From contig NZ_FNJD01000010.1 in NCBI RefSeq assembly GCF_900103185.1, positions 62,001 to 126,000 of the forward strand: a stretch of DNA of 64,000 nt, in the 5' to 3' direction. Every line of letters starts with the position of its first letter. Within the stretch, counting starts at the first letter, position 1. A program made the position numbers and the translations under genes. Of this stretch, positions 21,342-51,548 are shown piece by piece. The notes below the pieces were generated by a model. The model was given only the letters and a program-made list of their open reading frames with translations, ran no database searches and was not told the origin of the DNA. This DNA comes from Sulfitobacter litoralis (GTDB lineage Bacteria > Pseudomonadota > Alphaproteobacteria > Rhodobacterales > Rhodobacteraceae).

Positions 21342-23534
21342 TCACGAGACACTGCGGAGAAAGTCGAACAGCCTGAGACGGTCGATGGGTTTGGGCATCA
21401 GGTTCAACCCCATCGAGGCACACTGTTGCGCAAGCGCGCTACTGCGGTCGGCAGAGATCATACGCGTCGGGATTGGCCCGTATTGCTGAATGATCCGTTG
21501 GTGCAGCTCGGGCCCCGACATGCCATCGCCCAACTGGCAATCGAGCAATAGTACATCGGGGACAAGATCGATGTCCCTGAGGATGGCAATTGCCTCCTCA
21601 CCGTTGAGCGCGTGAATGACATGGGCGCCCCAGCCTTCGATCATGAGGGATATTGCGTTGGCAAGATCCCCGTCATTCTCCACAAGCAATATAATCTGAC
21701 CGAGCTTCGGTAACTTGGGGCTGTCGCTCATTGGTCTTACGGTCGTTTTTTGGGCTTTGTCACTGCAGAGGATCTTCAGCTCTACCGTAAAACAGCTACC
21801 CTTGTCCGGAATGGAGCAGAGATGCAGCGGGTGGTTCAGGGACTTGCAAGCCCGTTCGACAATGGCCAGACCCAGACCCAGACCGGCCGCAGAGTTCGCC
21901 ATATCCAGACGCTTGAACTCCTGAAAGATCAGTTTCTGATCAGCCTCTGCAATGCCAAAGCCCGTATCCCAGATCTCCATACGGGCCGTGGCCCCGCTGC
22001 GCCGCACGCCCACAAGAACCTTGCCACTCTGCGTGTACCGGATCGCGTTGGAAATGAGGTTCTGTGCGATGCGCCGCAAATAGCCGGGATCACTGCGCAC
22101 GGTCAGGCCGCAGCTCACGATGGTGAGATCCAGCCCCTTGTCCCGTGCTACGGGCGTCAACTCGTCGCTGAGAGGGCCAAGGATGGCGTCCAGCCGCACC
22201 GGCTGGATGTCGAAAGTGGGGCTGGTCGCGTCCAGTTTGGAGATGTCCAGCAAAGCTTCGATGATCTTCTCGACGCTGATCAAGGCTGTTTCGGCCTTGC
22301 CGATCACATTGAGTAGGTCTGGCTGCGTCAACCGGTCCGACACCGAAGCCACAAACAGTTTTGCAGCAGAAAGCGGTTGCAACAGGTCATGGCTTGCAGC
22401 AGCGACAAATCGGGATTTTGACGCATTGGCGCGCTCCGCTTCCGACAAGGCGATCCCCAACTCATTCGTGCGGTCCTGCACGCGCTGTTCCAGCACTTCG
22501 TTCATTTCGGCCAATGATTTCGCCGCAGACCGCTCGGCAGTGACGTCGGTAAAACTCATCACAAAGCCACGGTCCGGCATTTCCTGACCAAAAACGCTAA
22601 AGGTCTGGCGGCCGTTGCGCGTGACTTCAAAAGCAATCGGGGACCGCCCTTCATTGTGGTTGGCCCATCGCACCAGCATGTCGACGTCGAACTGGTCGGA
22701 GAAGATGAGCTGTTTTTCAAGCTGTTCGAGGAGAATGACAAAATTTCTCCCCAATGCTGCTTCCTGAGGGGGCAGATCCAGCAGCTGATTCATCTTCTTG
22801 TTCCAGCCCACAAGATTTTTTGCATGATCAAAAATGCAAACTCCCTGATTGAGATGGTCAAGCGTGGCTTGAAGGATCTGCGCCTGGCGGTCGCGCATCC
22901 GGTCCTGTTCTTTTCGTTCCAGCCGGATAATTTCGGTGACGTCCGTCTGCAGGATAACGGTGCCGCGACGGGCTGTGCGGTGTTCGCTGACCTGTATCCA
23001 GCGGTCATGTTTCAGACTGACATTGAACACCACATGGTTGTCGCGGTGCCGCTCGGTGCGCCGATTGGCCCACTGGGCGGGTGTCACATCAGGCGGCAGT
23101 GCGAGGGAGCTGCTTCGCGAAACCAGGTCGACGTAGTCGTTGAAAGGCAACCCTTCGACCAATCGCATCTCCACGTCTTTCATATCGCGGCAAAAACGGC
23201 TGTTGAACAGGACGAGTAGGTCGTTGGAATCAAACAGCGCAAAACCTTCGTTGATCGTCTCAATAGCCTCACCCAGATTGGTGCGGGCGGTTTCGGTCTC
23301 GCGGTTGGCCTCTTCAAGCTGTGCATTGGATTCCTGCAACAGATCGAGTGTGCGCTCCAGATCAATGGTCCGTTCCTTGACCTGCATCTCAAGCAGGGCG
23401 GCCCGTTCGAACTGGGCATAGGCAAGACCGGACTGTTCGTTTTTTTGCTCCACGCGGCGCATGAGAACTTTGGAAATCAGCAGCAGCTTTTCATTCTGGC
23501 GCTCGATGCTGTCGAGTGGGTTGATCAATGACAT
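21342..23534 (-). CDS. PAS-domain hybrid histidine kinase (FlhS/PedS1-like)
   Basis: A 730-residue cytoplasmic hybrid sensor kinase without clear transmembrane segments. A coiled coil (residues 40-90) is followed by two PAS domains (about 90-200 and 220-335), a second coiled coil, a HisKA domain with His382 in FVAAASHDLLQPLSAAKLF, a HATPase domain (N box LISNAIRYT, G boxes WDTGFGIA and GLGLGLAI), and a C-terminal receiver (ILLVENDGD, then LLLDCQLGDGMSG). The layout resembles FlhS of Paracoccus and the PedS1-type kinases of quinoprotein alcohol dehydrogenase loci. It precedes nothing on its strand and follows the FIST and LuxR genes, forming a three-gene signalling set for the dehydrogenase next door. 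The signal sensed is unknown. Confidence 0.85.
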   Translation of the reverse strand: MSLINPLDSIERQNEKLLLISKVLMRRVEQKNEQSGLAYAQFERAALLEMQVKERTIDLERTLDLLQESNAQLEEANRETETARTNLGEAIETINEGFALFDSNDLLVLFNSRFCRDMKDVEMRLVEGLPFNDYVDLVSRSSSLALPPDVTPAQWANRRTERHRDNHVVFNVSLKHDRWIQVSEHRTARRGTVILQTDVTEIIRLERKEQDRMRDRQAQILQATLDHLNQGVCIFDHAKNLVGWNKKMNQLLDLPPQEAALGRNFVILLEQLEKQLIFSDQFDVDMLVRWANHNEGRSPIAFEVTRNGRQTFSVFGQEMPDRGFVMSFTDVTAERSAAKSLAEMNEVLEQRVQDRTNELGIALSEAERANASKSRFVAAASHDLLQPLSAAKLFVASVSDRLTQPDLLNVIGKAETALISVEKIIEALLDISKLDATSPTFDIQPVRLDAILGPLSDELTPVARDKGLDLTIVSCGLTVRSDPGYLRRIAQNLISNAIRYTQSGKVLVGVRRSGATARMEIWDTGFGIAEADQKLIFQEFKRLDMANSAAGLGLGLAIVERACKSLNHPLHLCSIPDKGSCFTVELKILCSDKAQKTTVRPMSDSPKLPKLGQIILLVENDGDLANAISLMIEGWGAHVIHALNGEEAIAILRDIDLVPDVLLLDCQLGDGMSGPELHQRIIQQYGPIPTRMISADRSSALAQQCASMGLNLMPKPIDRLRLFDFLRSVS

Positions 23535-23539
23535 GGGTG

Positions 23540-24709
23540 TCAGGCCTCGCCGCCATGGGTTTCGGCATAGATCGCCAGACCGGACATGGTGTGGTTGACG
23601 TGAAGCGGCCCGATTTGTTCGCCATAGGTTGAAAAGCCGATGACCTTGTGACGGGTCAGTACGTCCGACACCTGGCGGGTGCTCTGTTTTTGCTCGGCTT
23701 CAATGCGGCGCAGAATGCAGTCACATCCTACGATGTCCGTCAGCGTGCCCATTCTGGACAGCTCGGTCAGCTTCTCGTCCAGATGTTCGGCCATGTCCCG
23801 CGGCTCTGCCACAGTCAGCACCATGCCTTCGTCTATGGCAGAGAAGAACACCAACTCGCCTTTTGGCGTGACCTGCTGGATCGCGCGGACATGATGGGCA
23901 CCGCCGATACGCACGACGACCGGATGGGAGGCGAAAGTGAACTGGTCGAGCTGGTCAGGGTTCGTACCGACCAATCGCGCATATTCGCGCGCGGCCGGCT
24001 CTGCGTTGATGGATTTCACGATGCGCCTGTCGGGATCGGCGTCGGTGACGACCATCTGAATATCCGTGGGGACAAGGTGATCAATGCTGAAGACCTGCGT
24101 TTTATGATCTGTCTGGATCATCGTCAGAACGGCAGCGTTTTGGCGCACCCGTCCATTAAATGACACGAACGTCTGTTTGAATCTGGTGCCGTCTCCCGCC
24201 GATCCGCCAAACAGCGGCATGTCCCGCAGCGCAGGCGAGATCGCAGCCGTCAGGGTATCCTCGCGCAGGGAAAGGCCGTCCACCACGAGAAAGGCAAACC
24301 CATTCAGTTTTTTGGGGTTTCTATCGCGCAAGGCAACCCGGTCCTGCGCAATGCGGTCAACCGCGCTTTGGGTCTCGCGACCGTCAAGGTCTTCGACGAG
24401 GATCGAAATGCTGTCAAAATGTGCGGCGGGGTAGCCAAGTCCGAGGATCGTTCCCTCCTCATAGCCTCCCGCGCCGATTTCTCCGGCGGTGGTACAGGCT
24501 ACAATATCAGTTGTGGGAAATACTGCGTTGAGTCTCTCTGAGACAGCAGCAAAATCGACATTCGGGGTCACAAAGACCGTGAGCAGGGCCAAGGGAGCGT
24601 CCCCCAGCTTTTCGCGCAGATGCGCGACCGGATCGTCGCATTTTACCGAGACCTGGGCCTGAGATAATACATGCACGTCCCGCCCGTTGCTCTGGATCTT
24701 TTCGGTCAT
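23540..24709 (-). CDS. FIST N/C domain sensory protein (NosP-like)
   Basis: A 389-residue protein starting at ATG 24709; a GTG at 24718 would add three residues. It has a FIST_N domain (residues about 30-220: LLTVFVTPNVDFAAVSERL, CTTAGEIGAGGYEEG, FLVVDGLSLREDTL) and a FIST_C domain (about 220-370: GGAHHVRAIQQVTPKGELVF, ending with SFTYGEQIG-like FSTYGEQIGPLHVNHTMSG). FIST proteins often lie next to kinases and modulate them; NosP members bind haem and sense nitric oxide. Its stop is 5 bp before the kinase gene start, so they are co-expressed. Whether haem is bound cannot be judged from sequence alone. Confidence 0.82.
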   Translation of the reverse strand: MTEKIQSNGRDVHVLSQAQVSVKCDDPVAHLREKLGDAPLALLTVFVTPNVDFAAVSERLNAVFPTTDIVACTTAGEIGAGGYEEGTILGLGYPAAHFDSISILVEDLDGRETQSAVDRIAQDRVALRDRNPKKLNGFAFLVVDGLSLREDTLTAAISPALRDMPLFGGSAGDGTRFKQTFVSFNGRVRQNAAVLTMIQTDHKTQVFSIDHLVPTDIQMVVTDADPDRRIVKSINAEPAAREYARLVGTNPDQLDQFTFASHPVVVRIGGAHHVRAIQQVTPKGELVFFSAIDEGMVLTVAEPRDMAEHLDEKLTELSRMGTLTDIVGCDCILRRIEAEQKQSTRQVSDVLTRHKVIGFSTYGEQIGPLHVNHTMSGLAIYAETHGGEA

Positions 24710-24742
24710 TCTGATCACCCCGTTCCGGTCACGATAGAGGTG

Positions 24743-25441
24743 CTATTCCCGGTTTGGCAAGACTTCGGAAAAATTCGCTTCATGTGCAACCAGCACCGCC
24801 TGGGTGCGGCTTTGAACGCCGAGTTTGCGCATGATCGCGGTCACATGCGCCTTTACAGTTGTTTCCGCAATCGTCAGGTCGAATGCGATCTGCTTGTTGA
24901 GCTTACCCTCGCAGATGAGGTTCAGGATACGGGCTTGCTGGTTGGTCAGGGACGACAATCTTCGCAGCGTGTCATCCTTGGCAGACCCCTCGCTGCCTTT
25001 GACAAAACCGGGCGGCGTGAAAATCTTGCCTTCCCTGATCTGGTCGACGGCATCCTTGAACACCGACCGGCGGCTGTGTTTGGGCACAAAACCCGCTGCA
25101 CCGGATGTGATTGCGGCGTTGATGATTGTGTTATCGGTCATCGAAGAGACTACGATGATTTTCGACTCTTCGGACTTCCGGCGCAGCTGCATCAATCCGT
25201 CAAGGCCGCTGACATCGGGTAGGTTCAAATCGAGCAGGATGAGGTGCGGCGCTTTGAAGGTGTCGAGCGTCTTGAGTGCCGATTGAAGGCAATCTGCTGT
25301 GCGAACTTCCACGAACTCTGCCACCGACCGCAGGGTCAGATCAAGCGCATCGCAAAACAGAGGATGGTCATCGACGATGAGCGCCCAGGGTGCGATGTCT
25401 TGCAATAAATGTTTTGATATTGGCGATTGATGAGGTGTCAT
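24743..25441 (-). CDS. NarL/LuxR-family response regulator (FlhR/AgmR-like)
   Basis: A 232-residue two-domain regulator. The receiver has IVDDHPLFCDAL and the phospho-acceptor Asp in HLILLDLNLPDVSGLDGL. The C-terminal helix-turn-helix is LTNQQARILNLICEGKLNKQ, then AETTVKAHVTAIMRKLG. This type (AgmR/ExaE/PedR2, FlhR) activates quinoprotein alcohol dehydrogenase genes. It lies upstream of the FIST and kinase genes on the same strand, and the dehydrogenase gene lies just upstream again, ended by its own terminator. A 15-bp palindrome sits immediately before its start codon and may mediate autoregulation. Confidence 0.87.
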   Translation of the reverse strand: MTPHQSPISKHLLQDIAPWALIVDDHPLFCDALDLTLRSVAEFVEVRTADCLQSALKTLDTFKAPHLILLDLNLPDVSGLDGLMQLRRKSEESKIIVVSSMTDNTIINAAITSGAAGFVPKHSRRSVFKDAVDQIREGKIFTPPGFVKGSEGSAKDDTLRRLSSLTNQQARILNLICEGKLNKQIAFDLTIAETTVKAHVTAIMRKLGVQSRTQAVLVAHEANFSEVLPNRE

Positions 25442-25554: not shown

Positions 25555-27321
25555 TTAGTTGTTGGAAGCAAGCTGTGCAGGCAGACGGAAGGTCCACAGC
25601 AGGCCGCCCTGGTTGAGGTAGCTCACCTTCTGGGCCACTTCGCCGCCCCAGAGTGGCACCGCACCACCCCATCCGGAGATTACGGTCACAAACTGTTCAC
25701 CGTCCTGTTCCCAGGTGATGGGCTGGCCGACGATGCCGGAACCGGTCTGGAACGACCAAAGCTTGTCGCCGGTTTCGTCATCGAAGGCGATGAATTCACC
25801 CTCGGGCGTGCCTGTGAACACCAGTCCACCGGCAGTGGTCATCACACCGGCCCAAAGGGGCGCGTCGTTCTTGTACTCCCACTTGATCTCGCCGGTGTCG
25901 GGGTCCATCGCCTTGAGGCTGCCGATGTGGTCCTCGTAGTTCGGCTTGATCGTGAAGCCCGAACCAAGGTAGGCCGCACCTTTCTTGTAGGTGATCGGCT
26001 CGTTCCAGACGTCCATGCCCCATTCGTTGGAGGGCACATAAAACAGGCCAGTTACGGGCGAGTGTGCCATAGGCATCCAGTTTTTGCCGCCGAGGAAGGA
26101 AGGCGACGAGAACACGACTTCCCCCTTGTTGCCATCGGCCGACGCAGCCGGGTCGCCGGGGCGATTCTCTTCGACGAAGATCGGACGACCGGTATCATCG
26201 ATGCCGCTGGCCCATGTGATGTCCTTGACGAAAGGTGCGGCACTCACAAATGCGCCGTCCTCGCGGTTGAGAACATAGAAGTAGCCGTTGCGGTCGGCGG
26301 TAGCCCACCGTTTGTTGCCTGCGCGGTCTTCATAGGCGACGACTTCGTTCACCCCGTCATAGTCCCAGCCTTCGCGGGGCGTCGTCTGGAAGTGCCACTT
26401 GATCTCGCCCGTGGCCGGGTCGATACCGATGCGTGACGCGGCATAGAGGTTGTCACCGGAGTTGCCTTCTGTCGGCTGGCCCGCATTGCGCAGGTGGCTG
26501 TTCCAGGGGGCAGGGTTTCCCGCGCCGAACACCAGCGTATCCGTGTCCGCGTCATACGATCCACCGAGCCAGGTAGCCCCGCCGCCGGTTTTCCACATAT
26601 CGCCCGGCCATGTCGCGTTCAACGTGCCGGTCATCGTGCTTTCTTCGCCGTTCAGCATCCCCATGTGACCCTCGATCACCGGACGATCCCAGATCAGTTC
26701 GCCGGTCTCGGTATCACGGGCTTGGACACGGCCGACCACGCCGAACTCACCGCCAGAGTTGCCGGTGATGATCATGCCGTTCAGGATCAGCGGGGCGGCA
26801 GTGTAGCTGTACCCCGCCTTGTAATCGGCGATCTGCTTGTTCCAGACCACATCGCCGGTGTCCTTGTTCAATGCAACGATGCGCGCATCGAGCGTGCCGA
26901 AGTAAACCTTGTCGCCAAAGATGGCGGCACCCCGGTTCACGACGTCGCAACACGGCAGGATACCTTCGGGCAGGCGGGCGTCATACTGCCACAGCTCTTT
27001 GCCTGTCTTGATGTCGATTGCATACATCCGCGAATAGGAGCCGGTGATGTACATCACGCCGTCATGCACGATGGGCTGCGTTTCCTGGCCGCGCTGCTTT
27101 TCACCGCCGAGAGAGAACGCCCAGGCCGGCACAAGGTTCTTGACGTTGTCCTTGTTCAGAGTTGTCAGCGGAGAGTGGCGTTGCAGGTGACGCCCCATGC
27201 CGTTTGTCAACACGTCACCCGTGGATGCCGTATCATTCGCAAGATCGGCCTCTGTGACGTCAGCGACCGCCAGGGTTGCCGTCATCATCGAAGCCGTCAG
27301 CGCCAAAATAAATCTGTTCAT
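25555..27321 (-). CDS. exaF: PQQ-dependent alcohol dehydrogenase, ExaF/PedH type (probably lanthanide-dependent)
   Basis: A 588-residue periplasmic quinoprotein starting at ATG 27321, with a strong GGGAGGAATACCGA ribosome site; the longer frame to 27357 adds unlikely residues before the signal peptide ([16 protein letters not shown]). The eight-bladed propeller shows TRP-docking repeats such as [13 protein letters not shown] and [15 protein letters not shown]. Vicinal Cys124-Cys125 ([10 protein letters not shown]) is the redox disulfide. The catalytic base Asp320 in GWDYDGVNE is followed by Asp322; this Asp-x-Asp pair marks lanthanide-dependent enzymes, whereas calcium enzymes have Ala or Ser there. 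The C-terminus ([25 protein letters not shown]) resembles PedH/ExaF more than XoxF. It oxidises primary alcohols to aldehydes, passing electrons to cytochrome c. Confidence 0.9.
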
Positions 27322-27543
27322 TCGGTATTCCTCCCAAGAATTATCTGGTCCGGCCACACCTTATGAATGAACGGCGCAATCCGGCATAGCTCGACTATCT
27401 GCACAAAAAGGCAAAGCGGCTATTGAACAATGGTCGTATCTCCAAGGGCGTCTCGCCCAAGACCAAAGTCGCAGTGCTGACGCGGGTGCGAGGGGGCTAG
27501 TCTGGCAGTCGAACGGACAGCCCTCCAGATCAAAGGACACCCC

Positions 27544-33346: not shown

Positions 33347-33406
33347 CGCCACCGTTTGGCAATCCTTAGACAGGTGGAAAAACACAACCTGACTTGGGAG
33401 AGTGAT

Positions 33407-34111
33407 ATGAAACTTCGTCTGTTCGCAAAAACAGCCCTGCCGACAATTATTCTGGCAGGCGCTGTCACCACCGCATTCGCGGCGGGTCCGCCTATCGGAA
33501 TCTCGCCGGTGGATACGGGCAGCCTGCCGTCAACGGGCGAGGAATGGTTGACCGTCAATCCCTACCGCGCGGACACGGCCGGTGTCGATGTCTGGAAAGA
33601 AGCTGTCGAGGTCGGTGCCTCGGGATACAACCAGAACTGTGCGCGCTGTCACGGGATCGAGGGCGTATCGGGGGGCCTTGCACCCGATCTGCGGTATCTC
33701 GAAGCCGAAGAATACGGCGACGAATGGTATGCGGAACGGTTCCGCTCGGGCATGACGCAGAACGGCATTACCAAAATGCCCGCTTTCGAAGAGCAGCTGG
33801 GACAGGACGCCGCCTGGGCGATCCGAACATACATCGAAACGCGCCCCGACAGCGATGCAATGGATGCGGTGTCAGACGAGCTGAAAGCTTTGCGTGACCA
33901 GATGGCAGAATACGCTAACAATGCAGAGGGCGCGGATGCGGAAGCATTACAGGCCCGGCTGACCGAGATCGGCGAGGGGATTGATACGCTGTCCGGCGCG
34001 CCAGTTGCAGACTCCATTGCCCTGCGTGCGGCGGCTCAGATCGACGGTACGCCTGCTGCATACAAAACTGCGGCAGAGACGCTTACAATCGGATTGTCGG
34101 CGGCGAACTAG
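33407..34111 (+). CDS. PedF-like cytochrome c-550
   Basis: A 234-residue protein with a signal peptide (TALPTIILAGAVTTAFA). The haem site is CARCHG, and the distal methionine is probably in GITKMPAFEEQLGQDAAWAI. The surrounding NQNCARCHGIEGVSGGLAPD, then LRYL, resembles the PedF family of cytochromes paired with quinoprotein alcohol dehydrogenases. A C-terminal helical extension of about 90 residues (LKALRDQMAEYANNAEGADA) is present. It would accept electrons from the ExaF-type enzyme in the periplasm. The start at 33407 has GGGAGAGTGAT upstream. The XoxJ-like gene follows 1 bp after the stop. Confidence 0.87.
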   Translation: MKLRLFAKTALPTIILAGAVTTAFAAGPPIGISPVDTGSLPSTGEEWLTVNPYRADTAGVDVWKEAVEVGASGYNQNCARCHGIEGVSGGLAPDLRYLEAEEYGDEWYAERFRSGMTQNGITKMPAFEEQLGQDAAWAIRTYIETRPDSDAMDAVSDELKALRDQMAEYANNAEGADAEALQARLTEIGEGIDTLSGAPVADSIALRAAAQIDGTPAAYKTAAETLTIGLSAAN

Positions 34112-34112
34112 C

Positions 34113-35015
34113 ATGCGCGCCCTGACAGTCGCTCTTTCGCTGGCGCTTGCGGGCCTGTCCTTTGCGGGGCAGGCCCACGCTGCCGATCCTTGTGCCGATT
34201 ATGTGCCGCAACCCAAACCGCAGAATGCCGGCCGCGACGAGGTGGGGCAGGACCTTGATCAGATCGTGGAGCGTGGATTCATGCTGTTTGCGGTCTACGA
34301 AAACTACCCACCCTACAGCTGGGAGGAGGCGGGCAAGCCAAGGGGGGTCGATGTCGACATTGCCCGCCTGATTGCCGAAGAAATCGGCGTTAAGGCACAA
34401 TTCAATTTTGTGTCGTCGGACGAGAACCTCGAAGCGGATCTGCGCAACAACGTCTGGAAGGGTGCTGTCATCGGTGGGCGTGTCTCCAATGTGATGATGC
34501 GGGTGCCTTACGATTCAGCGTTCAAGTGCCGGGTCGAGCAGGTGGTGTTCACGGGCCAGTATTCCACCGAATCCATCGCCATCGCCTATGTCAAATCCGA
34601 GTATCCGGACGAAAAGCCCGTACCGGCCTATTTCCGGTTCGATACGGTTGCGGTTGAAAACGATTCAATATCGGATTTCTACCTGACGTCATTTGCAGGC
34701 GGGCAGTTGGCGGCGAATATTACGAGATATCCCGATATGCAGGCCGCAATGACCGCGCTGAACGGCGGCGAGACGAAGGCGGCCATGGGCCCGCTGGGGC
34801 AGTTGGAATACGGGCTGACCGAGGCGACGGACGTACACCAGCCCCCGCTGGCAGGCTTTGCCGTCAGCAAGTGGACTTTGGGTGTCGGGGTCAACTTCCG
34901 TTTTCGGCCACTGTCTTATGCCGTGGATGACGCGATCTATGCAGCGCTCGAGGATGGACGGATCGCAGCAATATTCGACAGCTACGGGTTGAGTTTCCAG
35001 CCCCCTCTGCGCTGA
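34113..35015 (+). CDS. XoxJ/MxaJ-like quinoprotein-associated solute-binding protein
   Basis: A 300-residue protein with a signal peptide (VALSLALAGLSFAGQAHA). Family 3 binding-protein features are FMLFAVYENYPPYSWEEAGK, RGVDVDIARLIAEEIGVKAQ and GAVIGGRVSNVMMRVPYDS. This is the type called quinoprotein dehydrogenase-associated binding protein, including XoxJ and MxaJ, which are thought to help mature or activate the dehydrogenase or its cytochrome. It directly follows the cytochrome gene, giving a cytochrome-J pair like xoxG-xoxJ, but the dehydrogenase itself is 6 kb away on the other strand. Confidence 0.83.
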   Translation: MRALTVALSLALAGLSFAGQAHAADPCADYVPQPKPQNAGRDEVGQDLDQIVERGFMLFAVYENYPPYSWEEAGKPRGVDVDIARLIAEEIGVKAQFNFVSSDENLEADLRNNVWKGAVIGGRVSNVMMRVPYDSAFKCRVEQVVFTGQYSTESIAIAYVKSEYPDEKPVPAYFRFDTVAVENDSISDFYLTSFAGGQLAANITRYPDMQAAMTALNGGETKAAMGPLGQLEYGLTEATDVHQPPLAGFAVSKWTLGVGVNFRFRPLSYAVDDAIYAALEDGRIAAIFDSYGLSFQPPLR

Positions 35016-35091: not shown

Positions 35092-35610
35092 GTGAACCTT
35101 AGTGATACAAAGACGATCGACGCAGACCGCGCGACGGTCTATGCCGCCTTGCTGAACGCAGAGGTTTTGCAAGCCTGTGTGCCCGGGTGCCAGGAAATGA
35201 CCGGATCACCCGAAAACGGTTTCGAAGCCGTGGTGGTTCAAAAGGTCGGGCCGGTAAAGGCGACCTTCAAGGGCGCTGTCCAGCTGAGCGAGATGGTCGA
35301 GCCTGAAAGCCTGACCATCACCGGCGAGGGCAAAGGCGGTGCCGCCGGCTTTGCGAAGGGCGGTGCGAAAGTCCGTCTGGAAGCCGACGGCGACCAGACG
35401 ATCCTGCACTACGACGTCGAGGCAAAGGTGGGCGGCAAGCTGGCCCAGCTTGGCAGCCGCATCATCGATGGATTTGCCAAGAAAATGGCAGATCAGTTTT
35501 TCAGCAATTTCCAGGATGCCCTCGGCACACCATCGCAAGAGGTTGCCGCAACTGCCGAGGCAGCGCCAGAACAGAAAAAAGGCTGGTTCCGCAAGCTGGT
35601 AAAAAGCTGA
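35092..35610 (+). CDS. coxG: CoxG-like SRPBCC protein
   Basis: A 172-residue protein starting at a GTG, in the SRPBCC (START-like) superfamily. The N-terminus ([20 protein letters not shown], then CVPGCQEM) and the segment [18 protein letters not shown] are typical of CO dehydrogenase subunit G. CoxG proteins help anchor the CoxMSL enzyme at the membrane or serve quinone access. The tail is positively charged ([11 protein letters not shown]) and may be membrane-associated. It heads the coxG-S-L-M-like operon, an order different from the coxMSL order of true CO dehydrogenase. Confidence 0.87.
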
Positions 35611-35644
35611 GCGGGTCACACGAGTACACCAAGGGAGAAACGAC

Positions 35645-36130
35645 ATGACGAAAGTAGAAATGACGGTCAACGGGAAGCAGGTGTCCCGCGACGTTGAGGG
35701 GCAGACGCTTTTGGTGTCAATGCTGCGTGAGGATCTGCGACTGACGGGCACCCATGTCGGGTGCGATACATCGCAGTGCGGCGCATGCGTGGTTCATGTG
35801 AACGGAAAATCTGTGAAAGCCTGCACCATGTTCGCAATCGAAGCCGATGGTGCGGATATCAAGACGATCGAAGGGATGGCAGGCTCGGACGGATCGCTCA
35901 GCGTGATCCAGAGCGCGTTTCAGGAGCATCACGGATTGCAGTGCGGATTCTGCACACCGGGCATGGTGATGACGGCGGCCAACCTTCTCAAGGACAATCC
36001 GAAACCGACAGAGGCCGAAGTGCGCCACTATCTGCAAGGCAATATCTGCCGTTGCACGGGATACCACAACATCGTCAAGGCGATCATGGCCGCATCCGGT
36101 CAGGATGTCAGCGCCATCGCTGCAGAATAG
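35645..36130 (+). CDS. coxS: 2Fe-2S subunit of CoxSLM-type molybdenum hydroxylase
   Basis: A 161-residue protein with two [2Fe-2S] centres. The plant-type ferredoxin cysteines are in [15 protein letters not shown] and KAC, and the second cluster is in [10 protein letters not shown] and [11 protein letters not shown]. It moves electrons from the molybdenum centre to the FAD subunit. A strong AAGGGAGAAACGAC ribosome site precedes the ATG. It lies 34 bp after the CoxG-like gene and 60 bp before the large subunit gene. The length is typical. Confidence 0.93.
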
Positions 36131-36190
36131 CCCGGGCCGGAATACAAAGGCCGACGCCTACACAAAATAAAAGATTAAGGGAGAAGTTTC

Positions 36191-38563
36191 ATGCCGAAGG
36201 ACACCGGAATTGGCGCATCGACACGCCGCCGCGAAGACGTTCGTTTCCTCAAGGGAAAAGGACAATACACCGATGATATCCCGCCCGCCCATGATCAGGC
36301 GGCGGCGGTCTTCGCCCGCTCGACCGTGGCAAACGGCGTTATCAAATCAATCGACACATCCGTTGCGGAAAGCATGCCCGGCGTGCTGGCGGTTTTTACC
36401 GGTGCCGATTTCGCCGATGTTGGCGGCAACCCCGCAGGCTGGCTTATCAACAGCCGCGATGGCGAGCCGATGAAGGAGCCCAAGCGTCCCGTGCTGGCCC
36501 ACGGCAAGGTCCGTCATGTGGGCGATGCCTATGCCGCGGTCATTGCCGAGACGGAAAAACAGGCGCGTGATGCGGTAGAAGCCATCGAGGCCGACATCGA
36601 GGAACTGCCCGCCATCATGGACGTGAAGGCGGCGCTCACATCGGACAATTTCGTACATGACGAGATTGGCACGAACCAGTGTTTCGACTGGGGCTGGATC
36701 GAAGACAACCGACGGGCCACTGATGATGCGATCAAAGGTGCGGCGCATGTCACCACGCTCGAGCTGGTCAACAACCGGTTGGTGCCCAACGCGATGGAAC
36801 CGCGCTGCTCCATGGCAAGCTACAAAGAGAGCAGCGATGAATATACGCTGCACACCACATCGCAAAATCCTCATCTGACCCGGTTGCTGATTTCGGCCTT
36901 CGTGATGGGTATTCCCGAAAACAAGCTGACGGTAATCGCGCCTGACGTGGGCGGCGGCTTTGGCTCCAAGATTTACCACTACGGCGAAGAGGCACTGGTG
37001 CTGGCGGCGGCGAAACGCGTGGGTCGCACGGTCAAGTGGACGTCCGACAGGACCGAAGCGTTTCTGACCGATGCCCATGGCCGTGACCATGTGACCACAA
37101 TTGAACTGGCCACAGATGCCGAAGGCAACTTTCTGGCCTTCCGCACCGAGACCTATGCAAACGTCGGTGCCTACCTGTCAAACTTTGCCACTGCCACGCC
37201 GACCTTTCTGCACGGCACGTTGATGGCGGGCAACTATACGGTGCCGAATGTCTATGTGAACGTCAAAGCGGTGTTTACAAACACCGCGCCGGTCGACGCC
37301 TACCGCGGTGCCGGTCGGCCCGAAGCGACCTATTCTCTGGAGCGGGTCATCGACAAATGCGCACGCGAGTTGGGCATGGACCCGATTGCCCTGCGGCGCA
37401 AAAACTTCATCAAGCCGGACCAGTATCCTTTCGCCTCCGCGGCCGGTCTGGAATACGATTCCGGCAATTACGACGCCCTGATGGACAAGATGGAGGAAGT
37501 TGCGGACGTTGCGGGTTTCGCTGAGCGCCGCAAGGCGTCCGAGGCCAAAGGCCTGCTGCGCGGATTTGGTGTGAACGCCTATGTCGAGGCTTGCGGCATT
37601 GCGCCCTCCAACCTTGTCGGCGTGCTGGGCAGCCGTGTGGGTCTCTATGATGCGGCGACCGTGCGGGTGAACGCCACGGGCAACCTCAGTGTCATGGTCG
37701 GCGCGCACAGCCACGGCCAGGGCCATGAAACCGTGTTCCCGCAGATTGTCGCCGATATGCTGGGCATCGACGCCCAAAGCATCGACATCGTGCATGGCGA
37801 TACGTCCAAGATCCCCTTCGGGATGGGCACCTACGGGTCGCGTAGCCTTGCGGTGTGTGGCTCTGCCGTTGTCCGCGCCACCGAAAAGATCATCGCCAAA
37901 GCCAAGAAGATCGCAGGACATATGCTGGAAGCTGCCGAGACCGATATCGAGCTCAAGGACGGTCAATTCTCGGTCGTGGGAACGAACAAGGGCGTTTCCT
38001 TTGGCGAGGTAGCCCTCAAGGCCTACATCCCGCATAATTTCCCGATTGAAGACATCGAGCCGGGGCTGGAGGAAACAGCCTTCTATGATCCGGCCAACTT
38101 CACGTTTCCGTCAGGCGCTTACTGCTGTGAGGTCGAGGTTGATCCGGATACGGGCAAGGTGCGGGTAGACCGCATGACAGCCGTGGATGATTTCGGCAAT
38201 GTCATGAACCCGATGATCGTGACCGGCCAAGTGCATGGCGGTCTGGGGCAGGGCATCGGCCAGGCGCTGCTGGAAGCGGCGCGTTATAACGAAGATGGCC
38301 AGTTGGAGAGCGCGTCCTACATGGACTATGCCATGCCGCGCGCGGACGATCTGCCCTTCTATATCGTTGATCACAGTCAGGGAACACCCTGCACCCACAA
38401 CCCGCTGGGGGCCAAAGGCTGCGGTGAAGCCGGTGCCATCGGATCCCCGCCCACAGTTGTGAACGCTGTGATCGACGCCCTTCAATCGGGCGGCAAGAAC
38501 GTCACACACATCGACATGCCGTTGACTCCACACCGTGTGTGGTCAGCCATGAACAACGCGTAA
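36191..38563 (+). CDS. coxL: Molybdopterin large subunit of CoxSLM-type hydroxylase (form II-like)
   Basis: A 790-residue subunit of the xanthine oxidase family. The active-site loop is VDAYRGAGRPEA, the AYRGAGR type, not the AYxCSFR of form I CO dehydrogenase, so the selenium/copper-type CO site is absent. The catalytic glutamate is in PLGAKGCGEAGAIG. Cofactor-binding segments include PDVGGGFGSKIYHYGEE and GQGHETVFPQI. Form II enzymes have mostly unproven substrates; in this alcohol-oxidation setting an aldehyde is the likely substrate (inference). It binds molybdenum-molybdopterin cytosine dinucleotide, for which no chaperone gene is seen nearby. Confidence 0.9.
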   Translation: MPKDTGIGASTRRREDVRFLKGKGQYTDDIPPAHDQAAAVFARSTVANGVIKSIDTSVAESMPGVLAVFTGADFADVGGNPAGWLINSRDGEPMKEPKRPVLAHGKVRHVGDAYAAVIAETEKQARDAVEAIEADIEELPAIMDVKAALTSDNFVHDEIGTNQCFDWGWIEDNRRATDDAIKGAAHVTTLELVNNRLVPNAMEPRCSMASYKESSDEYTLHTTSQNPHLTRLLISAFVMGIPENKLTVIAPDVGGGFGSKIYHYGEEALVLAAAKRVGRTVKWTSDRTEAFLTDAHGRDHVTTIELATDAEGNFLAFRTETYANVGAYLSNFATATPTFLHGTLMAGNYTVPNVYVNVKAVFTNTAPVDAYRGAGRPEATYSLERVIDKCARELGMDPIALRRKNFIKPDQYPFASAAGLEYDSGNYDALMDKMEEVADVAGFAERRKASEAKGLLRGFGVNAYVEACGIAPSNLVGVLGSRVGLYDAATVRVNATGNLSVMVGAHSHGQGHETVFPQIVADMLGIDAQSIDIVHGDTSKIPFGMGTYGSRSLAVCGSAVVRATEKIIAKAKKIAGHMLEAAETDIELKDGQFSVVGTNKGVSFGEVALKAYIPHNFPIEDIEPGLEETAFYDPANFTFPSGAYCCEVEVDPDTGKVRVDRMTAVDDFGNVMNPMIVTGQVHGGLGQGIGQALLEAARYNEDGQLESASYMDYAMPRADDLPFYIVDHSQGTPCTHNPLGAKGCGEAGAIGSPPTVVNAVIDALQSGGKNVTHIDMPLTPHRVWSAMNNA

Positions 38564-38576
38564 AGGGACCCAAACC

Positions 38577-39365
38577 ATGTATGCATTTGACATAGAACGT
38601 CCAACGACAGTTGCAGAAGCGGTGAACGCGCTGAAAACGGATGAAGCCCAGCCTCTTGGCGGCGGGCAAACCCTGATCCCCACGCTCAAGGCACGGCTCG
38701 CTGCCCCCAGCAAGTTGGTCTCCCTCAGCGCGATTGCGGAAATGATCGGAATATCGCGCGAAGGATCAACGATCCGCATCGGCGGTGCGACGACGCACGG
38801 GCAGGTCGCGACAGAGTTGGCTGAGAGCTATCCCGCACTCGGCTATCTTGCCTCCAAGATCGGCGATCCTGCGGTGCGCAACCGCGGGACGATAGGCGGA
38901 TCGGTGGCCAACAACGATCCCGCAGCCTGCTATCCGGCAGCGTGCCTCGCCTCCGGTGCGACCATCACCACCAACACCCGCGACATCGCGGCGGACGACT
39001 TCTTTCTGGGCATGTTCGAAACGGCGTTGGAGGAGGACGAGATTGTGACGGCGGTGACGTTCCCCGTGCCGCAAAAAGCGGACTACCAGAAGTTCGAGCA
39101 GCCCGCCTCGCGGTTCCCGCTGGTGGGTGTGTTTGTGGCCAAGCACGACGACGGTGTGCGGGTCGCTGTCACCGGCGCTTCCGAGAGCGGCGTTTTCCGG
39201 TGGACCGAAGCAGAGGAGGCGCTGTCGGCGGATTTCTCCGCAGGTGCGCTGGACGGGTTGAGTGTGGACGCAGACGGGATGATCACCGACCTGCACGGCG
39301 ATGGCGCCTACCGCGCCCATCTGATCAAGGTTCTGACCGGACGGGCCGTTACAGCCTCACGCTAA
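38577..39365 (+). CDS. coxM: FAD subunit of CoxSLM-type molybdenum hydroxylase
   Basis: A 262-residue FAD-binding protein. The FAD motifs are PLGGGQTLIPTLKARLAAPS and the pyrophosphate loop TIGGSVANNDPAACYPAACL, then DFFLGMFETALEEDEI, as in CoxM. It completes the heterotrimer with CoxS and CoxL and passes electrons to the respiratory chain. It starts 13 bp after coxL and ends the operon, with a terminator 26 bp beyond the stop. Confidence 0.92.
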   Translation: MYAFDIERPTTVAEAVNALKTDEAQPLGGGQTLIPTLKARLAAPSKLVSLSAIAEMIGISREGSTIRIGGATTHGQVATELAESYPALGYLASKIGDPAVRNRGTIGGSVANNDPAACYPAACLASGATITTNTRDIAADDFFLGMFETALEEDEIVTAVTFPVPQKADYQKFEQPASRFPLVGVFVAKHDDGVRVAVTGASESGVFRWTEAEEALSADFSAGALDGLSVDADGMITDLHGDGAYRAHLIKVLTGRAVTASR

Positions 39366-39390: not shown

Positions 39391-39417
39391 GCCTCCGCAT
39401 AATGCGGGGGCTTTTTT
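39391..39417 (+). terminator. Rho-independent terminator after coxM
   Basis: GCCTCCGCA and TGCGGGGGC form a 9-bp stem with one G-T wobble, followed by six Ts. It separates coxM from the convergent apbE gene. Confidence 0.88.
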
Positions 39418-40306
39418 ATGCAGGGGCCTCGACCCTCGAGACATCGCCTTGATCACTAACAAGCGTGATCCGCCGGATCCCGAATGTCCCCACCGCCGCA
39501 CGGATATCCTCAAGGCGGGCCATTGTCAGCGCTGTGGAAAACCCGTCCGCCATGGTTGCGGTCGCCGCCTCGACCGAGACTGTAGACCAACGCGGTTTTG
39601 CGTGCCCATGCAGGATATGCCCTTGACCGCCCAGCGGAACGGCCTTGGGGCTGGAGGTGGCGATGGCCGACGAGGTGAGCGTGCGCGTGCCGATCATCCC
39701 GATTTCGGGGTCACTGATGCCCAGCCTCCACGGCCCGCCGGTGCCTCGAAATTCACCGATATTGACCAGCGTGCGCTCGAGCCCCGCATCCCGCAGCGCC
39801 TCGGCCACCAGATCTGTCGCGAACCCTTGGGCGATTCCGTTAAAGGTCAACGCCTGTCCTTCGCCCAACGTAACCGACGCAGCACTATGGCGCACACGCG
39901 ACCAGTCGATGAGCGCGCGCGCGGCCTCAGGTGGTTGCCCTTCGGCTAATGCGCGCCACAGCGGCTGAACGGTGGGGTCAAATAGCCCGCCGGTTGCTGC
40001 GTGAACCTGTGTGCAGGCCTGCATCAACCTGCGAAACATCACATCGGGCGCATCAAGGTGCCCGGTCCGGTTCAACCGCGAGACTGTGGAGGCCGGATCG
40101 AACAGGTCGAATTGCGCCATAACGGCATCCAGAGACCCACGGGCGCGGTCCAATGCGGGCTCGGCAATCTCTGCCGGGGCATGCAGGGTTATGTCAACCT
40201 CCGCCCCCAGGGCACGACCCTGCCAGCGGTGGATCTGCGCCCGCGCGGGCGTCGCCAGCATGCAGGCGGCCGAGATAGACAAGAAACGCCGACGATTCAG
40301 TTTCAT
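39416..40306 (-). CDS. apbE: FAD:protein FMN transferase ApbE
   Basis: A 296-residue periplasmic enzyme with a Tat-like signal (NRRRFLSISAACMLATPARA). Family motifs are GRALGAEVDITLHAPAEIAE, FDLFDPASTVSRLNR, FNGIAQGFATDLVAEALRDA and NIGEFRGTGGPWRLGI, with the metal site in MADGFSTALTMA. ApbE attaches FMN covalently to threonine of flavinylated proteins such as NqrC and NosR. The start overlaps the stop of the NosR-like gene, so its target is almost certainly that protein. Confidence 0.9.
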   Translation of the reverse strand: MKLNRRRFLSISAACMLATPARAQIHRWQGRALGAEVDITLHAPAEIAEPALDRARGSLDAVMAQFDLFDPASTVSRLNRTGHLDAPDVMFRRLMQACTQVHAATGGLFDPTVQPLWRALAEGQPPEAARALIDWSRVRHSAASVTLGEGQALTFNGIAQGFATDLVAEALRDAGLERTLVNIGEFRGTGGPWRLGISDPEIGMIGTRTLTSSAIATSSPKAVPLGGQGHILHGHAKPRWSTVSVEAATATMADGFSTALTMARLEDIRAAVGTFGIRRITLVSDQGDVSRVEAPA

Positions 40307-42405
40307 TGCGCGGCCACCTTATGCAGTCTGCGCCCGTTCCGCGCCGCCACGATCAGCGGCACGCATTGTTTTGGGTCATCGTGGATCGTGACGCAATCAA
40401 GGCATTGGAAACATTCGGAATACTGGATTTCGCCGGTTTTCTTGATGGCTCCGTAGGCGCATTTGACGCGGCACAACTGGCAGGGCGATCCGCATTCCGC
40501 CCGCCTGTCGATCCATTTGCGGGTGCGTATCAATCCGCCGATCGCCATGACGGCGCCCAGTGGGCAAATGTAGCGGCAGAACCCTTTGAACACCACCATG
40601 GACAGCACCAAAAGCCCCACCGCATAAGCCACATAATACCATTCGCGGACAAAGAACGTGGTCACTGCGGTCTTGAACGGCTCGACTTCGATGGCTTTGT
40701 CCAATCGCGCAGGGGCGGTGAACATGATCGCCACAAGTGCGAACAAGACGGCGTATTTGATCCATTTCAGGCGGTCGTCCCACGCATCGGGCACGTCAAT
40801 CTGGCGGATGCGCAACAGTCTTGCGAGGTGGTGGGCGAACTCTTGCATCGCCCCGAAGGGACACAACCAGCCGCAAAACAGACCTCGCCCCCAGAGCACA
40901 AACCCGAGGATCGTGACAGCCCAGATGACAAGCGAGAAGGGATCGTAGAGTAAAAACGCCAGTGATCCGCCCTCGGCCACCGTACGGATCACCCCGAGCG
41001 GCGTAACGATCGACAATTGCCCTTGCCCCCACCAGCCGACAAACCCGATGACAAAGGCCAGAATCCCGAGGCGGATCGGTGTGAAATATCTATGCCCGGC
41101 CAGGCGGTTCAGGCTAAGGCCCAGCAGTGCGATCAATCCGACAAGAAAGACGGCGAGGATAATCAGATCCGCCGCACGGTTGCGCAACGCATCTACCCAC
41201 GCAGGCGTCGGTTTGACCGCTTCGAGACGTTTGAAAAACCGCGCGTCCGTGCTGTGGGTGATGTCTACCGAGGCTGAACCGATTTCGGGTTTGAACATGC
41301 CATGCTCGCGCAGCGCCTTGATCCGCAGTGTCCATTCCGCAGTAGGATCGAACCCCAGCCGCCTGTCCGTGCGCAGGATCAGGGCAGCACTGTCGTGCAG
41401 TTCGTCGGGCAGGGCGTCATTCAGCTCAATGTAGATGTCGGCATCTCGCAGGGCTATCGGAAAACCGCCTTGTTCCGCGCTGATCAGATCGGGTGAGGTG
41501 TTGCGGATGAATTCATCGGTGACCAACCCGTGCCGTGCCGTCTCGATTACAAGAATGGGTTCGTCGCTGGTGGAGATACCCATAAACCCCTTCAGTTCAG
41601 CGAGGCTGCCGGGAGACAGCACCGCGCGGGCGATCGAGGGCGGGCCTATGTCCACAACCCAAAGATCGAGGAAGGTGCCGTCGGGATTGTCTCTTGCTTC
41701 CGGATCATCGTCGGCCCAGATCGTCCCTGCAAATTCAGCGTTTATCTCCGCATTCGACACGCGGTGACGGGTGACCAGTCCTTGTCTGACCAGATCCTCC
41801 CAGTCCAATGGCTCATCATAGGTAAGGTCCGGATAGGCGGGCGGACCTGTCGAGACGCCGCTCATCTTTTCGCGTGCGACCTTCAGCGTCGCGGCCAGCA
41901 CGCTTTCATGGGCGATGCGCACGGAGGCGGTCGCTTTGGTGACGCCGTCAAGATAGACCAGCGCGGATCCGTCAGTTCCCGCGCCATAAGGCGTCCCGAC
42001 CACCAGACTTTCGGTAATCGAATGGCCACGATATTGCTCGAAGAACTTGTGGAACGGTGCCTGTCCCAGCCCTGAGACAAAGATCGGCTCGTTGTGGGAG
42101 ATCAGTTTGACGTCGAGAAAACGAGCTTCAAGGTCAAGGACCACCAGCACGTTGATAGGCGCACCGGAAAAGCCGGGCAGCGGTGCCATCGGCTCAGTCT
42201 CGAACACAAATCCTGCCTCGGCACCGCCCGAGTTCAGAAGCTGCCACACGCCTTCATCGTTGATCCTCTCGCCCAGCGACATCGGCGGAACGATGTAGGG
42301 CTCCAACGTCTCTCGATCCAGCGGCTGGGCGGCCAGCGCAATGCACGACACCAGCCATAAAGTGACCGCACCAAGCACGATGTGTAATATCCAGTGGCGT
42401 TGCAT
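40303..42405 (-). CDS. NosR/NirI-like FMN and 4Fe-4S membrane protein
   Basis: A 700-residue protein. After an N-terminal helix (VLGAVTLWLVSCIALAA) comes a periplasmic FMN-binding domain ending in LDGVTKATASVRI, where Thr159 fits the flavinylation motif. A long periplasmic region follows, then about five transmembrane helices (for example LIILAVFLVGLIALLGLSLN), with CGWLCPFGAMQEF and FCRYICPLGAVM, and a C-terminal ferredoxin domain (CGSPCQLCRVKCAYGAIKK, CFQCLDC). True NosR serves nitrous oxide reductase; no nos genes are seen, so this homologue probably links periplasmic flavin chemistry to the quinone pool for alcohol oxidation (inference). Confidence 0.85.
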   Translation of the reverse strand: MQRHWILHIVLGAVTLWLVSCIALAAQPLDRETLEPYIVPPMSLGERINDEGVWQLLNSGGAEAGFVFETEPMAPLPGFSGAPINVLVVLDLEARFLDVKLISHNEPIFVSGLGQAPFHKFFEQYRGHSITESLVVGTPYGAGTDGSALVYLDGVTKATASVRIAHESVLAATLKVAREKMSGVSTGPPAYPDLTYDEPLDWEDLVRQGLVTRHRVSNAEINAEFAGTIWADDDPEARDNPDGTFLDLWVVDIGPPSIARAVLSPGSLAELKGFMGISTSDEPILVIETARHGLVTDEFIRNTSPDLISAEQGGFPIALRDADIYIELNDALPDELHDSAALILRTDRRLGFDPTAEWTLRIKALREHGMFKPEIGSASVDITHSTDARFFKRLEAVKPTPAWVDALRNRAADLIILAVFLVGLIALLGLSLNRLAGHRYFTPIRLGILAFVIGFVGWWGQGQLSIVTPLGVIRTVAEGGSLAFLLYDPFSLVIWAVTILGFVLWGRGLFCGWLCPFGAMQEFAHHLARLLRIRQIDVPDAWDDRLKWIKYAVLFALVAIMFTAPARLDKAIEVEPFKTAVTTFFVREWYYVAYAVGLLVLSMVVFKGFCRYICPLGAVMAIGGLIRTRKWIDRRAECGSPCQLCRVKCAYGAIKKTGEIQYSECFQCLDCVTIHDDPKQCVPLIVAARNGRRLHKVAAQ

Positions 42406-42495
42406 TGATCGAGATTAGAAGCAGGTGGAAAAATGCTCTATGCGACTATGGTAGGGCTTCGCTATTTCGCCTTGGGATTGGCGCGGGATTTGTGC

Positions 42496-43281
42496 ATGGT
42501 AATTGCTATGCCTGACCACAACCCTCACCCCTCATTGCCGGTCGTGGTGATATCACTTTTCGGGCTGTATTTGATCTGGGTCCTTGCGGCATGGGTAACA
42601 AGTGATGGTGCGGTCCTTCCCGGCCCTGCCGAGGTCTGGCGCGTCGGCTTGCTCGAGGGCCGATCGGGTGAGTTGCAGCGGCACATCTGGGCAACGCTCA
42701 AGCGGGTTGCCATGGCCTTCGCGCTTGCGATGGTTTTTGGCACGGTGGCGGGGCTGTTGTTGGGGTTCTATCCGTATCTCAACCGCTGGTTCGGGCCATG
42801 GCTGATCGTGCTTTTGAATATTCCCGCATTGGTTGTTATCGTTTTGTGCTACCTCTGGATCGGTCTGAACGAGGTTGCTGCGGTTACTGCTGTCGCCCTC
42901 AATAAAATGGCGATGGTGGCTGTGACCTTGCGCGAAGGGGTGCAGGCCCTGGACCCTAAACTTGGCGAAATGGCACGTGTCTTCCGGATGCGGCCCATAC
43001 AGCGCCTTCGCCATGTGACACTACCCCAGCTTTGGCCCTATTTTGCTGCCAGCACGCGCAACGGGTTGGCGATTATTTGGAAAATTGTGCTCGTGGTCGA
43101 GTTTCTGGGCCGCAGCGATGGCATCGGGTTTCAGATCCACCTCTATTTCCAGCTGTTCGAGACGCGCTATGTTCTCGCCTATGCGCTGAGTTTTGTGTTT
43201 CTGATGTTGGCGCTCGAATACGGAGCGCTGCAAACCTTGGAGCGACGCGCAACACGCTGGCGTAGCGCGTCCTGGGTCTGA
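42496..43281 (+). CDS. NitT/TauT-type ABC transporter permease
   Basis: A 261-residue membrane protein of the BinPDT (SsuC/TauC) type, starting at 42496 or 42508; an upstream ATG at 42433 gives a longer form. Transmembrane segments include VVVISLFGLYLIWVLAAWV and FALAMVFGTVAGLLLGFYPY. The conserved EAA-like loop is TLREGVQALDPKLGEMARVF, then RMRPIQRLRHVTLPQLWPYF. No ATPase or binding-protein gene lies nearby; both are at 27.5-29.1 kb on the same strand. It is divergent from the NosR-like gene and the last intact gene of the island on this side. Confidence 0.85.
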   Translation: MVIAMPDHNPHPSLPVVVISLFGLYLIWVLAAWVTSDGAVLPGPAEVWRVGLLEGRSGELQRHIWATLKRVAMAFALAMVFGTVAGLLLGFYPYLNRWFGPWLIVLLNIPALVVIVLCYLWIGLNEVAAVTAVALNKMAMVAVTLREGVQALDPKLGEMARVFRMRPIQRLRHVTLPQLWPYFAASTRNGLAIIWKIVLVVEFLGRSDGIGFQIHLYFQLFETRYVLAYALSFVFLMLALEYGALQTLERRATRWRSASWV

Positions 43282-43807: not shown

Positions 43808-43872
43808 TCCAACCGGCGTCGCAATGCGCCATACTGCAGTTGTTATTGACTGCTTTTGAGAGGAGCTACCCA

Positions 43873-44892: not shown

Positions 44893-45166
44893 ACTGAGGA
44901 GAACAGAACACACGAGACAGCAAGACCATTGAAATGATGGAGCACAGTCAGCCCGTCAGCCAAGAAACCCCGTCGAATGTCAGTGGCTTCACTTGTCCGC
45001 AGACCGGTTTGGGACTTGGTTTGCGGAAACCATCCACTGCCCGGCAGGGCATTGCACAGCAATGTCCCGAGAGGGAGGGCCAGCGGCCGCGTGCGCCGCG
45101 CAAACAGGCCGGACACACGTCTGCTTCTGACCAGTGCCAAAATCAGCTTCAAATATGTCTTGCTTT
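44893..45166 (+). ncRNA. Possible bridge RNA region of the IS110-family element
   Basis: The 274 bp between the transposase stop and the right inverted repeat is non-coding. In IS1111-type members the bridge RNA is encoded in the 3' non-coding end, whereas in the other IS110 group it lies 5'. The position and length fit. I have not folded it and no stem-loops are claimed. This is family-based inference. Confidence 0.35.
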
Positions 45167-45183
45167 GCAGCAGCTATCCACAC
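45167..45183 (-). repeat. Right inverted repeat of the IS110-family element
   Basis: GCAGCAGCTATCCACAC is the reverse complement of the left repeat with one mismatch. Together with 43791-43807 it defines the element. Confidence 0.8.
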
Positions 45184-45368
45184 AGGACATTGAACTCCGC
45201 TGCGCCTTACGGAATTCATACTGCTCTTTCGCTGTACAGCCCGTGAACATCTAAAATGCGCGACCAAAAAGAACATTCGTTATAGTTGCGCCAACTACTG
45301 GTTCAAAGGCCAGAAATGGATCATGCAGTAAATCGTAACAGCGTGATAGTTCGCATTGGAGCCCACTC

Positions 45369-46136: not shown

Positions 46137-46137
46137 G

Positions 46138-47217: not shown

Positions 47218-47223
47218 GGTGAC

Positions 47224-48796: not shown

Positions 48797-48800
48797 GGGC

Positions 48801-50875: not shown

Positions 50876-50877
50876 GA

Positions 50878-51534: not shown

Positions 51535-51548
51535 TCATGCCCCCGCTC

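Follow-up and report, generated by a model that had tools for sequence, protein, structure and literature searches.

The island described here lies in a 64,000-nucleotide stretch of Sulfitobacter litoralis DNA (contig NZ_FNJD01000010.1, positions 62,001 to 126,000; hereafter the window), and its subject is a gene for a NosR-like membrane protein together with apbE. An earlier note on the window had placed this pair at 39416-42405, which proved exact, the two open reading frames (ORFs) overlapping by 4 bp. The island around the NosR-like gene carries pqqB, pqqE, a pyrroloquinoline quinone (PQQ) alcohol dehydrogenase (ADH), PQQ-associated ATP-binding cassette (PQQ-ABC) genes, and genes for PedF, a PedG-like protein, CoxG/S/L/M-like proteins, and NosP-type regulators (Table 1). 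We found that the NosR-like protein is paired with a PedH/ExaF-like ADH, a pairing that is near-strict in the order and optional further out.

The NosR-like protein shows the traits of the NosR/NirI superfamily: a periplasmic segment of the flavin mononucleotide (FMN) type, CxxxCP motifs, and two C-terminal [4Fe-4S] motifs, with the topology taken from hydropathy only. The iron-sulfur domains that the earlier note had named for this homologue were located. The NCBIfam NosR model NF046105 aligned with residues 30-689 at 449.8 bits (E 1.6e-134), which falls far short of its equivalog cut-off of 1000; the protein also matched Pfam Fer4_5. PF12801, ApbE, and the PQQ ADH all occur in the island, with the ADH 13 kb from the NosR-like gene and more than five genes off. 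Since the Pfam FMN-binding domain model gave no match at E 0.001, the presence of an FMN-type domain was deduced from the NosR model and the flavinylation motif. In all 63 members of the subtype defined below, T159, K157, four CxxxCP cysteines, and eight ferredoxin-type cysteines were invariant, and D153 was kept in 62. The AlphaFold model was poor (mean predicted local distance difference test score 65.9, with residues 127-164 below 50), and a Foldseek search with it was empty at E 0.001. RnfG chains were considered as a structural match and not used, being too weak (E about 0.2, probability 0.77-0.90). A sequence search for a relative of solved structure found none at the limits used, and the lone sub-threshold match (E 0.09) spanned just the ferredoxin-like end.

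The genome of the window encodes a single ApbE, which resembles four ApbEs from nos clusters that adjoin nosZ. The apbE gene lay within 120 bp of the NosR-like gene at 60 of the 63 subtype loci, and ApbE was found in 77 of 80 loci of a second survey, drawn from named genomes. One of the three subtype loci without an adjacent ApbE (G103) begins at a contig end. Four genomes (G207, G159, L218, and L220) had no adjacent ApbE and encoded one elsewhere.

Table 1. Features of the island in the window (positions count from the first letter of the window)
Feature	Position	Strand	Basis
NosR-family, probably flavinylated, membrane iron-sulfur protein, 700 aa	40303..42405	-	NosR model alignment and motifs
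Flavinylation motif D153-GVTKA-T159, T159 the predicted FMN acceptor	41929..41949	-	Conservation
First CxxxCP motif, C511GWLCP516	40858..40875	-	Motif
Second CxxxCP motif, C610RYICP615	40561..40578	-	Motif
C-terminal ferredoxin-like region C638-C681, two [4Fe-4S] motifs	40363..40494	-	Motif
ApbE-type FAD:protein FMN transferase, 296 aa, twin-arginine N-terminus	39416..40306	-	Pfam ApbE 125 bits
PedH/ExaF-like PQQ ADH, WDYDG (DxD) metal motif, vicinal Cys-Cys	25555..27357	-	
Cytochrome c-550 PedF, true start likely downstream of ORF start	33356..34111	+	TIGR04494 159.4 bits, cut-off 122
PedG-like periplasmic binding protein, solute-binding protein (SBP) family 3, true start likely later	33981..35015	+	
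PQQ-ADH-associated genes: TIGR03861, TIGR03864, 149-aa protein, TIGR03866, TIGR03863	29140..33243	-	
CoxG/CoxS/CoxL/CoxM-like molybdenum hydroxylase genes, variable cassette part	35092..39365	+	
ABC permease, divergent from NosR-like gene	42433..43281	+	
NahK-like hybrid kinase, NosP-like protein, ErdR-like regulator	21342..25441	-	Each under the named model's cut-off

Across 292 genomes from the order to which the window belongs, NosR-like matches were bimodal, 63 at 54-100% identity to the protein of the window and the others, among the matches listed, at 29-33%. A tree was built from the 63 subtype proteins, a 44%-identical protein of another family, 19 nosZ-adjacent NosR proteins, and eight homologues with an SRAT motif, for which we assume the name NirI. 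Support was 0.90 for the 63 subtype proteins (1.0 with the 44% protein), 0.999 for the NosZ-linked NosR, and 1.0 for the NirI-like group. The flavinylation motif followed the clades, being TKAT in 53 of the 63 subtype proteins (TKGT in six, AKAT in three, LKAT in one), SGAT in 19/19 NosZ-linked NosR, and SRAT in 8/8 NirI-like proteins. Judged by tree and motif, the subtype is a third branch of the NosR/NirI family. It shares with NosR and NosX/ApbE the domain order, the position of the flavinylation site, the CxxxCP and C-terminal iron-sulfur motifs, and a twin-arginine ApbE, whereas it is only about 30% identical to NosR, has TKAT in place of SGAT, has no nosZ next to it, and scores under the equivalog cut-off. 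The NirI-like homologues have the same cysteine motifs and a basic residue at the third-last motif position but form a separate clade of eight sequences; the only two with flanks examined (L099 and L104) held no PQQ ADH, PQQ-ABC, or nosZ.

The claim that no nos genes lie nearby was confirmed, in that the genome of the window gave no nosZ match at E 1e-60 and has just one ApbE. The presence of nosZ at the loci of relatives had been set beforehand as evidence against the earlier note, and it was found at none of the 63 subtype loci and none of the 80 loci from named genomes, compared with five of seven controls. As 19 of the 80 repeat the subtype set, these make 124 distinct loci, many of them shorter than 20 kb and ending at contig ends. 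A nosZ over the cut-off was present elsewhere in 13 of the 63 subtype genomes, either on a different contig or no closer than 392 kb.

The ADH of the window has 6zcv/6zcw, which we take to be PedH, as its nearest solved structures, and its metal motif is WDYDGVNE, a DxD motif that we presume to be of the lanthanide type. The enzyme is thus probably lanthanide-dependent and of the PedH/ExaF type, on the strength of its sequence. Using it as query at a strict limit, the same 292 genomes were surveyed, with matches at 73-100% identity. The NosR subtype was present in 63 genomes, the ADH in 63, and both in 62. Co-occurrence with quinoprotein genes, the lack of which had been named as a refutation, was therefore observed in 62 of the 64 genomes having either gene. 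Of the two exceptions, G128 has the ADH (82%) without the NosR-like gene on a contig that breaks in coxS, and G155 has the NosR-like gene, on a 4.7-kb contig, without the ADH. A PedG-like protein was encoded in 64 of the 292 genomes, exactly the union of the two sets. Within the genus of the window both genes were found in the same three of 15 genomes, which is more telling than the Fisher value. In 48 genomes the distance between the two genes was within 25 kb. Four genomes had them on one contig but separated by 103-232 kb, so that the pairing also holds without close linkage; one had them at the two ends of a contig, and nine had them on separate contigs, in several cases at contig ends. 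Fourteen further genomes were examined, 12 chosen for the lack of a visible PQQ gene, in some cases on short contigs, and two (L183 and L215) chosen by taxonomy; four were labelled Granulosicoccus or Granulosicoccaceae, and one (L192) repeats one of the 63. The ADH was found in 13 of them, the miss being a 2.6-Mb metagenome-assembled genome.

The pairing is not with PQQ dehydrogenases at large. The PQQ-ABC binding protein TIGR03863 was present in all 63 subtype genomes and in 40 genomes without the subtype, and no NosR-like or ApbE match was found at the PQQ-ABC loci of any of these 40. An ADH was in view in 35 of the 40; 34 of these are only 34-43% identical to that of the window, the 35th being that of G128. 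The motif WDxDG(V/I)NE was present in 31 of the 34 low-identity enzymes, and the two that were tested had XoxF as nearest solved structures. The partner suggested by the earlier note, a PQQ dehydrogenase, was correct in kind, but the association is narrower than claimed, with one PedH/ExaF-like ADH and not the XoxF type.

In a wider sample, a class survey of 240 genomes yielded, besides the genome of the window, NosR matches at E 1e-110 in only two, one at 67% with the full cassette and one at 44% with a 69% ADH about 13 kb away. The ADH was detected at E 1e-220 in 14 of 190 genomes sampled across the phylum, and the four ADHs of 79-100% identity (G000, G003, G332, and G583) were all accompanied by the NosR type. 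The NosR-like gene, apbE, and the ADH also stand together on pME152 of Methylorubrum extorquens (NosR-like protein 43%) and on a Variovorax replicon (41%). We also observed a NosR-like protein (38%) on Azoarcus plasmid pAZKH (L277 11956-14118) beside a two-component system; neither PQQ nor nos genes were found in the annotated 26 kb of this locus, and the protein is perhaps a further branch of the family.

Cytochrome c550 PedF was in view at 48 of the 63 subtype loci, and in each of the 15 genomes left over the PedG-like gene had it as a neighbour. The replacement of the cytochrome by the flavoprotein was considered as a role and fitted poorly: because PedF is encoded in all 63 subtype genomes, the flavoprotein does not substitute for it here. 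The cox-like genes were in view at 24 subtype loci, absent at 24 where the PedG-like gene and apbE were in view, and undecided at 15; extra stretches around the PedG-like gene of 15 genomes contained them in 13. The adjoining cox genes of the earlier note are thus real in the window and inconstant in relatives. A constant link between NosR and cox was rejected as a rule, and the cox-like genes are a frequent, dispensable neighbour.

SoxYZ was tested in 80 of the 103 PQQ-ABC genomes. A SoxYZ carrier over the cut-off was present in nine of 40 NosR-type genomes versus 37 of 40 PQQ-ABC-only genomes, and six of the nine also have a second PQQ-ABC locus. Of ten distant PedH-like loci without NosR, just two had a SoxYZ match within the stretch examined. 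Vicinal cysteines were present in all 48 ADHs examined, of both types. A clean complementarity of NosR and SoxYZ did not hold; it is only partial, and in the order SoxYZ mostly tracks the XoxF-type loci.

The remaining genes of the island were also inspected. The large subunit of the 'cox' genes scores under both CO-dehydrogenase cut-offs. The protein encoded at 23540-24718 matched the nitric-oxide sensor NosP below the cut-off, and it is no nos-operon gene product; NosP-like, NahK-like, and ErdR-like proteins were seen to recur in PQQ loci of relatives. The permease at 42433-43281 probably goes with the NMT1 gene (27544-28518) and the ATPase gene (28472-29131), an NMT1-type ABC transporter apparently split, with 13 kb between the permease and the genes for the binding protein and ATPase. 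In several relatives (such as L081, L084, L090, and L098) all three lie side by side. The 149-aa protein of the PQQ-ABC group (30641-31090) gave no Pfam or NCBIfam match and has no CXXCW motif, and it was kept in relatives. The island lies on a plasmid-like replicon, and an IS110-type transposase followed by VirB/Trb conjugation genes was observed directly past the cassette (43840-56153). The best-matching annotated plasmid record examined is a conjugative plasmid of Sulfitobacter pontiacus, which has the same gene order and whose proteins share 99.4% (NosR-like) and 99.8% (ADH) identity with those of the island. On that record the NosR-like protein is labelled '4Fe-4S binding protein', ApbE 'FAD:protein FMN transferase', and the c550 pedF. 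Phaeobacter gallaeciensis is another marine carrier of the cassette.

Part of this association had been reported. According to the available text of Méheust 2021, flavinylated NapH-like clusters with an ethanol oxidase (exaA) occur in 172 genomes, and the flavoprotein was proposed to link the oxidase with the respiratory chain as electron carrier, a role that cytochrome c has elsewhere. The general association is therefore already published in outline. These clusters resemble the island in that a NapH/NosR-type protein predicted to bear FMN is encoded near a PQQ ADH, but there the flavoprotein takes the role of cytochrome c, whereas the subtype of the window always comes with PedF. The literature examined, as far as its text was available, contains no report that the pairing with a PedH-like ADH is one to one, that the motif is specific to the clade, that the cytochrome is always present, or that SoxYZ shows the contrast seen here, and for NosR, PQQ alcohol dehydrogenase, and ApbE together the sole match, in the texts available, was a study of N2O-respiring methanotrophs. 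The ped cluster of Pseudomonas putida has, like the island, a PedH-like ADH, PedF, a PedG-like protein, and PQQ-ABC genes; it has SoxYZ/SoxH in addition, unlike 31 of the 40 NosR-type genomes, which lack a SoxYZ carrier over the cut-off. A 2026 ped review covers PedF, PedG, and SoxYZ/SoxH, and 'flavin' and 'iron-sulfur' occur nowhere in its text. Excerpts of two further studies touch on the subject: apbE insertion mutants of P. putida had altered butanol traits, with apbE read as a thiamine gene, and in a lanthanide study of Rhodobacteraceae XoxF5 was essential for growth on methanol and ethanol.

We propose, with a probability of roughly 45%, that the NosR-branch protein and its ApbE form a dedicated electron-transfer module, running from quinol to the periplasm, that keeps the PedH/ExaF-like ADH competent. 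On the periplasmic side, ApbE would load T159 with FMN. Electrons, most likely supplied by quinol, would come in through the membrane or cytoplasmic iron-sulfur part and would exit via FMN to a periplasmic acceptor of the ADH system, as proposed for NosR and NosZ. In this way the NosR-like protein may keep or make the ADH competent by reductive maturation or reactivation that acts, for example, on PQQ or on the vicinal disulfide; PedF would be the exit for the main flow of catalytic electrons. A link between the quinone pool and the periplasm through the NosR-like protein, as the earlier note suggested, is plausible by homology. The outward direction is favoured because FMN-loaded NosR is proposed as the electron donor to NosZ in the accessible part of PMC7660919.

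A more specific form of this proposal, in which the NosR-like protein and ApbE act as a reductive maturation or reactivation device in place of the SoxYZ/SoxH of XoxF and Pseudomonas ped systems, is rather doubtful. In those systems SoxYZ and SoxH may serve as helpers of maturation or reactivation. The SoxYZ counts would allow the module to stand in for the SoxYZ relay and do not establish it, because vicinal cysteines occur in both ADH types.

Several findings weigh against the proposed module. The 292 genomes are related, so that the co-occurrence statistics are descriptive only, and co-transfer accounts for part of the co-occurrence, given how often plasmids carry the locus. Among the phylum ADHs of 62-66% identity, none of ten had a NosR-like gene in the 14.5-20 kb examined, and distant PedH-like ADHs can probably work without the NosR-like protein. 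The plasmid of Sinorhizobium fredii NGR234 carries a cassette with the ADH (79%), PedF, the PedG-like protein, and PQQ-ABC genes (L278 16300-33600), with no NosR-like gene found within 20 kb, the chromosome and other replicons not having been searched; S. fredii was not among the 60 listed of 70 plasmid NosR records. The flavinylation motif has K in place of G of the consensus D-x-x-[S/T]-G-A-[S/T], as given in the available text of an ApbE review, in 63/63 members, and the same text reports that a change of Gly to Ala cut flavinylation of a test protein by half. ApbE is encoded next door and the acceptor Thr never varies, but because of this departure from the consensus we infer, and do not assert, that T159 is flavinylated. 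The flavinylation motif at Thr159 named in the earlier note was borne out, with an invariant Thr, and is qualified by the Lys and by the sub-threshold Pfam FMN domain. The direction of electron flow is proposed by analogy with NosR, and the donor and acceptor are putative. Finally, Bennett et al. found, in the portion available, that NosX is dispensable for assembly of the NosZ copper centre; the precedent in the family is therefore electron supply in turnover and not maturation.

Four other explanations were weighed. Of these, forward flow fares best, although it is on the unlikely side: the NosR-like protein would take electrons from the ADH, either directly or by way of c550, and hand them to the respiratory chain, as Méheust et al. 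propose. The partly available text of that study already sets out such a model for flavinylated NapH-like proteins encoded with exaA, and the strict pairing with the ADH is in agreement with it. Yet the published role is that of a cytochrome c, which all 63 genomes already encode as PedF. Covalent FMN of the NosR-like kind has a potential well below those of PQQH2 and cytochrome c, and forward flow would be uphill if the FMN of this protein has such a potential. A regulatory or indirect role, in which the NosR-like protein would respond to the redox or alcohol state by adjusting how the locus is expressed, a function once proposed for NosR, is improbable. The NCBIfam model bears the name 'transcriptional regulator NosR', the accessible part of PMC7660919 mentions a regulatory role of NosR, and the island encodes the kinase, NosP-like, and ErdR-like proteins; with these the locus already has regulators of its own, however, and the invariant flavin-site and iron-sulfur residues and the adjacent ApbE indicate redox work.

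It is still less probable that the NosR-like protein serves the cox-like molybdenum hydroxylase or the NMT1-type ABC transporter and not the ADH. In the window its gene stands right next to the cox-like genes and the permease, and both recur in relatives (the permease at 37 of the 63 loci). However, 24 of 63 loci had no cox gene beside the PedG-like gene and apbE (such a gene could lie elsewhere in the genome), the transporter genes also occur at XoxF-type loci without NosR, and the ADH co-occurs in 62 of the 63 subtype genomes. The idea that the NosR-like gene is an orphan, the remnant of a nitrous oxide reductase cluster since lost, was rejected as hardly credible, since for all its membership in the NosR family and an ApbE like those beside nosZ, the subtype is a clade apart from the 19 NosZ-linked and eight NirI-like proteins with its own motif, and nosZ was found at none of the 124 distinct loci.

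The usual description of PQQ ADHs, and especially of lanthanide ones, names a cytochrome and a binding protein as helpers. A membrane protein with flavin and iron-sulfur sites that tracks one ADH almost without exception points to a missing electron path, carried together with that ADH by members of a family of mostly marine bacteria. If true, the proposed module would also explain the NosR-family proteins, in many cases labelled simply '4Fe-4S binding protein', in genomes without nitrous oxide reductase.

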